From NCBI GenBank assembly GCA_025210235.1, contig JAOASG010000042.1:62001-126000 (forward strand): a DNA stretch of 64,000 nucleotides. Direction: 5' to 3'. Under the pieces are notes generated by a model that did not search any database, was not told where the DNA came from, and worked only from the letters and a program-made list of their open reading frames with translations. The stretch comes from Vallitalea sp. GTDB lineage: Bacteria > Bacillota > Clostridia > Lachnospirales > Vallitaleaceae. A program made the translations under genes and the position numbers. Shown here piece by piece: positions 332 through 3,634 of this stretch; the stretch's first letter is position 1; every line of letters starts with the position of its first letter.

Positions 332-1648
332 TTATTGTGCTTCAAGATATAACTTTTTTAGCATTTGTTTATAATTGAATTTAGTCATAGAACATTTATA
401 ATTATTATCTACATTATCTTTAATTACTCGATGTGCACATCCACCCATACATATAGGTATAAACTTGCATTCTCTACATTTATTATCATTTAAAGGATTA
501 AAAGATATCCATTTTAATAAATTTGAGTTTTGATACATTGGAATTTCTTTTGGAGGTTTTGATATATGACCAACAATACCACTAGGTTCTCCAATACTAT
601 CCCAACATTTTAATAAATTACCTTCTGGATCAATTACCCAATTGTTTAAACAAATTGCTCTACAACAAGAACAATCGCTACCATCAAAATCATAACCTGT
701 ATTGAATCCTGATTTTTCAATAGTATTAAATAAATCGGGTTCTATATTTGCAAAACTTGGATAATCAAAACATTTAGATGAGAAGGTATTGTTATTTACT
801 TTGGAGCTTGTACCAAAAGGAATTATAGGAGTAACATAAATTGTAACCTTATCCTTTAATTTATTAAACTTTAGCGAGTTTAATAGAGTATCTAGTTTAT
901 TGTAATTGTTTTTACCTATATTAATCCTAATATTTACATTAAGTTTGTTACATGCATAATTGATATTATCTAAAATGGTATCATATGAATTAGGATTATT
1001 ACAACATTTACTAGAAAAAGGTCTCATTTTATTATGAATATCTTTTGGTCCATCAATTGTAACTTGTATTGTTGGAATTTTATACTTAATAAGTTTATCA
1101 ACAGTTTCTTTAGTTAGTAATGAACCATTAGTTATCATAGATGCATCATAATCTATGGATAATTTTTCACTCATAGCAATAAAAATTTCTGAAAGCTTCC
1201 AAATTGTTGAAGATGCTAAAAGGGGTTCGCCACCATACCATGCAACAGAAAATCGTTTTTTACCAGTTAGATTAATTGCAGTAAAATTAATTAGTTGATT
1301 TATTGTTTCCCTAGACATATAAGATTTTGTATTATTTTCATAACAATATGTGCAATCAAAGTTACAATCAAGTGTTGGGAGAATAGTTAAAGATAATAAA
1401 TCTGTTCTATACTTATGATAAGATAATCTTGTTTGAATATAATTTAGTTCATTAAAATCATCAGGAATTATAAAACGTCCTATAATTAATTTGTTTAATA
1501 ATTCAGAAGAAATTTTATCCTGTCGATTTTCACTAATTAAATTATAACTATTTTTATCAATAGTTATAATGGCGCCTGAAAGTAAATTAGAAAGAATTAA
1601 TTCATCTGAGTTGATTTCTGATGTAATATTATAATAAGATGGTTTCAT
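332..1648 (-). CDS. Radical SAM/SPASM peptide maturase
   Basis: This 438-residue protein is a probable radical SAM peptide-modifying enzyme. Residues 1-80 look like a small winged-helix, PqqD/RRE-like leader-binding region. The radical SAM core follows with the cluster motif C95-xxx-C99-xx-C102 and then a YGGEP stretch. The C-terminal third is a SPASM-type region with many cysteines (CSCC, LLKCW, CRECKFIPICMGGC) that would bind auxiliary Fe-S clusters. Its ATG overlaps by one base the stop of the upstream Cys-rich peptide gene (TAATG), so the two are translationally coupled and the peptide is the obvious substrate. Known relatives make thioether (sactipeptide/ranthipeptide) or other carbon-linked changes; which reaction occurs here cannot be read from sequence. 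No exporter or protease gene is visible before the window ends. Confidence 0.9.
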   Translation of the reverse strand: MKPSYYNITSEINSDELILSNLLSGAIITIDKNSYNLISENRQDKISSELLNKLIIGRFIIPDDFNELNYIQTRLSYHKYRTDLLSLTILPTLDCNFDCTYCYENNTKSYMSRETINQLINFTAINLTGKKRFSVAWYGGEPLLASSTIWKLSEIFIAMSEKLSIDYDASMITNGSLLTKETVDKLIKYKIPTIQVTIDGPKDIHNKMRPFSSKCCNNPNSYDTILDNINYACNKLNVNIRINIGKNNYNKLDTLLNSLKFNKLKDKVTIYVTPIIPFGTSSKVNNNTFSSKCFDYPSFANIEPDLFNTIEKSGFNTGYDFDGSDCSCCRAICLNNWVIDPEGNLLKCWDSIGEPSGIVGHISKPPKEIPMYQNSNLLKWISFNPLNDNKCRECKFIPICMGGCAHRVIKDNVDNNYKCSMTKFNYKQMLKKLYLEAQ

Positions 1649-1938
1649 TACTTATTAGAACACCAAGAAACTTCTTTTGTAGTATATTTTGTTCCTGGAG
1701 GTGGTTTTACACAGCAATGTTTTATCTTAAGACAACAATGCTTCATTTTGAGACAACAATGTTTCATTCTATCTAATTCTTTTTCTTTGGAAGAATCATC
1801 TTCATTAACTTTGTTGATTATATCAACAAAGTCTGATAATGATATTTCTTGAATATTTGAGTCAATTCTAAACTCTTCGGGAATTTTTACATACGGAATT
1901 TCATCTTTAATTTTAATAATCCATTCTGTATTATTGAT
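1648..1938 (-). CDS. Cys-rich RiPP precursor peptide, apparent AUC start
   Basis: The open frame encodes 96 residues ending in three tandem heptads (M/I)KHCC(L/V)K at residues 58-78. A Pro-rich tail (PPPGTKYTTKEVSWCSNK) with a seventh cysteine follows. Residues 1-57 are acidic and Cys-free, as expected for a leader peptide. No ATG, GTG or TTG exists in this frame before codon 58. A near-perfect Shine-Dalgarno (AAAGGAGATGAT) sits 8 nt before an ATC codon at 1938-1936, so I place the start there. The nearest ATG (1946) overlaps the Shine-Dalgarno in another frame that soon closes. The stop overlaps the maturase start by one base. Strong coupling to a radical SAM/SPASM gene supports a ribosomally made, modified peptide. 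It resembles in outline the clostridial Cys-rich radical-SAM peptide systems, but the CC heptads are not a motif I recognise. Confidence 0.8.
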   Translation of the reverse strand: MNNTEWIIKIKDEIPYVKIPEEFRIDSNIQEISLSDFVDIINKVNEDDSSKEKELDRMKHCCLKMKHCCLKIKHCCVKPPPGTKYTTKEVSWCSNK

Positions 1939-2007
1939 ACTATCATCTCCTTTTTATTATATAGGTAATTAAAAAAACTGTTTATATGTAATTTATATAT
2001 ATTTTTA

Positions 2008-2036
2008 ATTATAGCAAAAATAGGTATTAGATACAA
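2008..2036 (-). promoter_or_regulatory. Promoter of the precursor-maturase operon
   Basis: On the minus strand, TTGTAT (2036-2031), a 17-nt spacer and a perfect TATAAT (2013-2008) form a vegetative-type promoter. Transcription would begin near 2001, giving a 5' leader of about 60 nt before the apparent AUC start at 1938. Confidence 0.65.
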
Positions 2037-2260: not shown

Positions 2261-2446
2261 ATGACAGCAGAAAGAGTTCAAGAAATTTTAGATTCAAAAG
2301 GAGTTATAGATGTTGATTATGATGGAAAATCTGTATGGATTAAAAACATTGATAAAGTAAATAATACAGTAGAAATAGAAATAATAGAAGAAGATTTATC
2401 TCATAATGAAGTAGTAAGTATTAATGAACTTTATGAGAATATTTAG
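2261..2446 (+). CDS. sspH: Small acid-soluble spore protein, H type
   Basis: This 61-residue protein matches the SspH pattern: RVQEIL near the start, then a short beta-rich stretch VDYDGKSVWIKNID, an acidic middle, and a V-x-x-x-ELYENI end. H-type SASPs are minor proteins of the dormant spore core. The gene stands alone and is followed directly by a terminator. AAAGGA lies 11 nt before the ATG, which is slightly long spacing. Sporulation control by sigma-G would be expected for the family, but I could not identify a confident sigma-G promoter. Confidence 0.85.
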   Translation: MTAERVQEILDSKGVIDVDYDGKSVWIKNIDKVNNTVEIEIIEEDLSHNEVVSINELYENI

Positions 2447-3429: not shown

Positions 3430-3517
3430 AAAAAATAATTTAAAAAAAGAGTAGACATTTGTAAAATAATGTGATAAATTTATAAAAGAACTAAATAATA
3501 AGAATTTCTTTAAATTA

Positions 3518-3599
3518 GTACAGAGATGCTAGTAAGAAGTTATACCGGGATATAGTTATGTATACTATGGCTTCTTGCATGCGTCTAGAAGCCTTTTTT
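3518..3599 (+). promoter_or_regulatory. PyrR-type attenuator leader of pyrR-uraA
   Basis: GTACAGAGATGCTAGTAAG at 3518-3536 closely resembles the PyrR-binding anti-antiterminator loop of Firmicute pyr leaders (GUCCAGAGAGGCU-GCAAG type). AAGAAG just after it can pair with CTTCTT at 3571-3576, an antiterminator. Alternatively GGCTTCT (3569-3575) pairs with AGAAGCC (3587-3593) followed by six T, the terminator. In the known mechanism UMP-bound PyrR stabilises the first hairpin and so favours termination when pyrimidines are plentiful. Confidence 0.8.
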
Positions 3600-3634
3600 A
3601 TTGCAATAATTTAAATATTTTTAGAGGTGAGATT

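Follow-up and report, generated by a model that had tools for sequence, protein, structure and literature searches.

A candidate two-gene radical SAM/SPASM RiPP operon with repeated KHCC heptads and a likely non-AUG start codon in Vallitalea

Our analysis of 64,000 nucleotides of Vallitalea sp. DNA (the whole stretch, called the window below) makes it quite probable that two genes on its minus strand form a RiPP operon, in which a leader-core precursor, weakly initiated at a non-AUG codon, would be coupled by a gene overlap to a radical SAM/SPASM maturase that crosslinks its Cys-Cys blocks. The precursor/maturase pair proposed in the initial annotation was borne out, since a leader-core peptide and a modifying enzyme are adjacent, are inherited together and have an ortholog in a congener (genome G170). 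The features of the locus are the following.

2008..2036, minus: putative sigma-A promoter, TTGTAT-N17-TATAAT with a TG one base before the -10 (from the sequence)
1942..1955, minus: extended Shine-Dalgarno (SD) sequence AAAAAGGAGATGAT, duplex energy -12.8 kcal/mol
1936..1938, minus: proposed non-AUG start codon ATC, 8 nt after GGAG
1648..1938, minus: precursor peptide gene, 96 aa plus stop, read from the ATC at 1938
1768..1938, minus: leader of 57 codons with the conserved WIIKIK-x-E-(I/V)-PYV-x-IPE (codon-position differences from G170)
1747..1767, minus: heptad 1, MKHCCLK (reading frame, KHCCxK pattern)
1726..1746, minus: heptad 2, MKHCCLK (its HCCLK part is missing in G170)
1705..1725, minus: heptad 3, IKHCCVK (reading frame, KHCCxK pattern)
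1651..1704, minus: C-terminal tail PPPGTKYTTKEVSWCSNK (PPPGTKY and SWCSNK conserved in the ortholog)
332..1648, minus: radical SAM/SPASM maturase of 438 aa, overlapping the precursor stop by one base
2261..2446, plus: sspH (spore protein, PF08141 match), a divergent neighbour that marks the shared locus, with no role in the pathway claimed for it

The 96-codon minus-strand frame with three (M/I)KHCC(L/V)K heptads, described in the initial annotation, is present at these coordinates, as is the one-base stop/start overlap with the radical SAM/SPASM gene, in which the precursor stop TAA (1650-1648) and the maturase ATG (1648) have one base in common. Translation of the frame gave a peptide that ends in ...ELDRMKHCCLKMKHCCLKIKHCCVKPPPGTKYTTKEVSWCSNK* and in which the order MKHCCLK-MKHCCLK-IKHCCVK-PPPGTKYTTKEVSWCSNK places a Cys pair every seven residues of the core. 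The DNA pattern for KHCCxK was matched three times in the window when 0.01 matches were expected, none of the shuffles reached three, and no tandem KHCC pattern turned up in the other 390 genomes of the class sample. Only three synonymous changes distinguish heptads 1 and 2, so that it is the amino acid sequence of the repeat that is kept.

Comparison with the congener showed an orthologous pair in which a homologous precursor (62% identical) lies beside a related maturase (73% identical), with the gene order and the one-base overlap of the window. The G170 peptide keeps the leader, the heptads, PPPGTKY and SWCSNK, and has two blocks (MKHCCLK-IK-IKHCCVK) and only five Cys, a state that would be explained by the in-frame loss of HCCLK. 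The KHCC blocks are therefore conserved between homologous precursors, with an in-frame change in their number, and the CC heptads, which had been taken for the modified core, are the probable core of the precursor. Differences between the two species at codon positions 1, 2 and 3 numbered 17, 6 and 29 in the leader (dN 0.30, dS saturated), 6, 2 and 14 in the core, and 110, 51 and 187 in the maturase; over the three parts dN was 0.13-0.30 while dS was above 1 or saturated. This codon-position bias and the dN/dS values indicate that the part of the frame preceding MKHCC is translated and maintained by selection.

In both carriers the pair is found next to sspH, within a uraA-pyrR-thioesterase-sspH neighbourhood whose carrier-to-carrier identities (UraA 85%, PyrR 85%, thioesterase 64% and SspH 53%) range from below to above those of the pair. 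It is absent from genomes G163 and G079, where sspH and a vanZ-like next gene are about 80 bp apart, and from G147, where sspH abuts an MFS gene. The precursor and the maturase were present or absent together across the loci compared. The shared locus points to vertical inheritance of the pair; the simplest reading is that a common ancestor had it and that some species have lost it, repeated gain at one site being less likely. A spore role suggested by the adjacency of sspH was dropped, because a shared ancestral location explains this adjacency most simply and deprives it of independent value as evidence. Upstream of pyrR (window 3503-3602), a PyrR binding site (RF00515) scored 52.8 bits, slightly short of the gathering threshold of 54.

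Searches for further carriers extended to two scans of 84,980 GTDB species with very specific short exact peptide patterns, and to order, class and phylum genome samples, viral contigs, plasmids and phages; none of these gave a second precursor outside G170. Among the maturases compared outside G170 none was closer than about 35%, and the distant maturase loci that were read for KHCC peptides held none. A weak precursor match and a single match to the KHCC pattern in another genome (locus L007 of G164) were rejected as chance, as they fall in other frames inside a MotA-like gene. The carriers found by these pattern scans and genome samples are two species of one genus, and more may exist.

The start of the precursor is unusual, as no ATG, GTG or TTG occurs in the window frame from the upstream stop codons down to MKHCC, and an ORF caller reported only 39 aa of it. 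The ATC stands 8 nt after GGAG, and an ATA is found at the matching place in G170, 9 nt from the SD, when the spacing between SD and start in loci of the genus is usually 6-12 nt with a mode of 7-9. The duplex energy of the window SD ranked 14th of the 112 genes compared and that of the ortholog was -12.7 kcal/mol, both calculated with an anti-SD typical of the 16S 3' ends of Firmicutes, which may differ from the host's own; GGAGATGAT pairs with this typical anti-SD with one mismatch. Retapamulin ribosome profiling of Staphylococcus aureus revealed initiation at AUU and AUA codons that follow extended SDs, with roughly 10-30% of the output of AUG (PMC13009471), which fits the start codons of both species. 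We consider non-AUG initiation of the precursor likely, with moderate confidence.

The same RiPP pair could instead have a normal start at the ATG inside AAGGAGATGAT, the window copy having suffered a recent one-base deletion or an assembly error that leaves the peptide gene dead or misread. That ATG is in frame in G170 (MIEISEKEDW...), the window comes from a 71-contig draft assembly, and one gene of the same genome (L038:1212) seems to use such an SD-embedded start, the ATG directly behind AAGGAG being the only canonical one nearby. However, in the stretch upstream of the window peptide frame, AAAAAGGAGATGATAGTATC, the ATG does not share the frame of the peptide and belongs to the extended SD, paired with the anti-SD, and a start there would reduce the spacing to 0 nt from the 6-12 nt of most genes. 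An ATH codon at the ideal distance from the SD is present in both species, and the remainder of the window peptide frame is intact and conserved. A normal start with a damaged window copy is thus a real possibility, on which we place less belief than on its contrary, and the non-AUG start is retained below. Another ATG further upstream in G170 (MDIYKN...) was ruled out as a start, since it overlaps the -10 hexamer. The long frame at L038:1212 also has an in-frame ATT 9 nt after its SD and is another candidate for non-AUG initiation.

The promoter reported in the initial annotation is plausible by eye, with TTGTAT, a 17-nt spacer and TATAAT, but lacks statistical support: promoter-like sites numbered 22 in the window versus 24.2 in shuffles, so that the putative promoter is not above chance. 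It would give a 5' UTR of about 55-60 nt. The promoter of G170 is better (TTGAAA-N17-TATAAT, 11 of 12 positions) and stands about 70 nt upstream of its SD.

The maturase passed the cutoffs of Pfam Radical_SAM PF04055 (55.3 bits, cutoff 29.5) and of SPASM TIGR04085 (55.9 bits, cutoff 27). Its CX3CX2C motif is at residues 95, 99 and 102, and its SPASM region has Cys at 329, 348, 391, 394, 400, 404 and 419. Alignment of 15 related enzymes showed that the cluster Cys are invariant, and that only the window and G170 enzymes have a complete CxCC motif (residues 326, 328 and 329). In the tree, a long branch leads to these two, which group together with full support, and they are about 32-35% identical to Clo7bot and other clostridial enzymes. 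The nearest PDB relatives by sequence were 8vpo, the top match, whose title gives only 'Radical SAM core domain-containing protein', and, among others, 5wgg, which we take to be CteB, a ranthipeptide synthase. CteB has been described (PMC8326336). A single-sequence AlphaFold model of the maturase had a mean pLDDT of 39.7, too poor for a structure search or for the recognition of an N-terminal RRE winged helix (residues 1-85).

Membership of Clo7bot or of the CLI_3235/CcpM group, which had been left open in the initial annotation, was found for neither. The Clo7bot model TIGR04334 gave the maturase 261.7 bits against a cutoff of 600 and TIGR04333 (cutoff 31 bits) did not match the precursor, when the locus used as a positive control, in genome G583, passed both models (775.4 against 600 and 39.3 against 31). 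The partial match to the CcpM/CLI_3235 model TIGR04068, which shares with the window a clostridial Cys-rich peptide and a radical SAM maturase, reached 81.6 bits of the 500 required. Scores were also under the cutoffs with TIGR04463 (254.7 of 525 bits), the CefB model (223.3 of 600), SCIFF/ScfB TIGR03974 (73.1 of 425) and PapB NF047865 (113.6 of 340). The precursor matched none of the RiPP family models searched, the CefA-type model included. The maturase being far under the curated cutoffs of all these families and the peptide without a family-model match, the pair would represent a new subfamily of radical-SAM RiPPs, apparently restricted to the genus and neither Clo7bot nor CcpM.

Clo7bot systems resemble the window locus in having a radical SAM/SPASM maturase whose length and domain order are similar, Cys-rich substrates and an occurrence in Clostridia; however, the window maturase is only 32% identical to theirs. 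Clo7bot loci carry arrays of peptides of 36-54 residues (of the MKYIVKP... type) and an ABC transporter, whereas the window has a single leader-bearing peptide of 96 residues and no transporter. A typical Clo7bot peptide array is present in G583 and, by annotation, on a Paraclostridium plasmid; in G583 (L073, 2850-4544), about ten short and markedly divergent copies of Clo7bot-type peptides precede one maturase. The TIGR04463 and CefAB systems have the enzyme superclade and repeated Cys cores in common with the window, but the window core has Cys pairs at every seventh residue and not the Cys at every fifth residue of CefAB, and one related enzyme has next to it an annotated CefA of 679 aa. 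SCIFF and PapB-type ranthipeptides are made by thioether-forming SPASM enzymes, 5wgg being among the nearest PDB relatives by sequence. Unlike characterised ranthipeptides, the window heptads contain none of the acceptors Asp, Glu, Asn and Thr, the residues on offer besides Cys being Lys, His, Met/Ile and Leu/Val. Together with the five Cys of the ortholog, this leaves the initial annotation's figure of up to seven Cys-derived crosslinks unsupported in the form given. A second RiPP-type locus of the same genome (L071, contig 35, 4422-7651) is of an ordinary kind, with a radical SAM/SPASM enzyme 30% identical to the maturase, an ABC transporter and a short, Cys-containing peptide, MKYLILNPISPKGGNTGCPNYTSYGPWPCGCDGNNPVCVTPTGSKVHIMSLPNPNK.

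The window also contains a near-palindromic interspersed element of about 115 nt with 16-nt terminal inverted repeats (AGTAATTGCAAAACTA...TAGTTTTGCAATTACC), at 68 (minus), 2196 (plus, a short copy), 9889, 14202, 18886, 32893, 33083, 40301 and 41949. Its core occurs 9 times in the window (0.14 expected), and its predicted RNA fold has an energy of -42.9 kcal/mol (z -9.7). Among the matches listed, the genome holds at least about 40 full-length copies with 93-97% identity; one full and a few partial copies were found in G147, weak matches in G170 and none in G163, G079 and G177. Some copies seem to be flanked by AT-rich duplications of 9-11 bp, and the element appears MITE-like and recently amplified. 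Two inverted copies (68-95 and 2184-2211) flank the precursor/maturase pair; a mobile-element origin of the pair was rejected on the ground that this flanking is probably a coincidence, the repeat being so common in the genome. Downstream of the maturase (114-147), a perfect 12-nt inverted repeat, GTGTACGTGCAC/GTGCACGTACAC, encloses a 10-nt loop.

In the mechanism that we propose, the extended SD would place a low-rate start on the ATC (ATA in the congener), and translation would run on through the TAATG overlap into the dedicated maturase. By analogy with characterised SPASM maturases, the leader would dock on the N-terminal region of the enzyme, and the thiolate of a core Cys would be bound to an auxiliary cluster during the formation of a carbon radical on the acceptor (PMC8326336). 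The maturase would then crosslink the Cys-Cys blocks once per block, most likely through Cys thioethers. As the genes next to the pair include no transporter, protease or immunity gene, export and cleavage would need unlinked genes. The product may act as a signal or an antagonist; SCIFF-derived ranthipeptides of clostridia have been linked to quorum sensing and to sporulation gene expression (PMC8102284), which makes a signalling role of the putative product a reasonable guess.

Two other accounts of the peptide were weighed. The KHCC blocks, with their His and vicinal Cys, could mainly be a metal- or redox-binding module, and the enzyme could modify the Trp, Lys or Pro of the tail or add a change other than a crosslink. 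The conserved tail (PPPGTKY...SWCSNK), the C-C links and other changes that SPASM enzymes also make (PMC8326336), and the missing ranthipeptide acceptors would suit such a module, but the Cys pairs are invariant although the number of blocks varies, and the closest enzyme families act mostly on Cys-rich peptides; we regard it as unlikely. The chance proximity of a short open frame to an unrelated radical SAM enzyme would agree with the failure of every precursor model, yet it is already contradicted by an ortholog conserved with coding-type substitutions, as well as by the KHCC pattern statistics, and is extremely improbable.

A more far-reaching proposal is put forward tentatively, with rather low confidence. 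The pair would belong to a RiPP class confined to the genus, in which a conserved non-AUG start, acting through an extended SD, throttles a precursor that is coupled to its maturase. The blocks would carry crosslinks of a type without precedent (from Cys to Lys, to His, to Leu/Val or to the neighbouring Cys) and form a modular chain in which the number of rings varies by in-frame gain or loss of blocks. None of the curated radical-SAM RiPP models searched takes in the maturase or the peptide, which makes the pair a compact system in which to look for new crosslinking chemistry at vicinal Cys that have no known acceptor nearby. Standard gene callers would truncate a precursor that has no canonical start, so that similar ones may be overlooked, and, if confirmed, this gene would join the few bacterial genes known with ATA or ATC starts.
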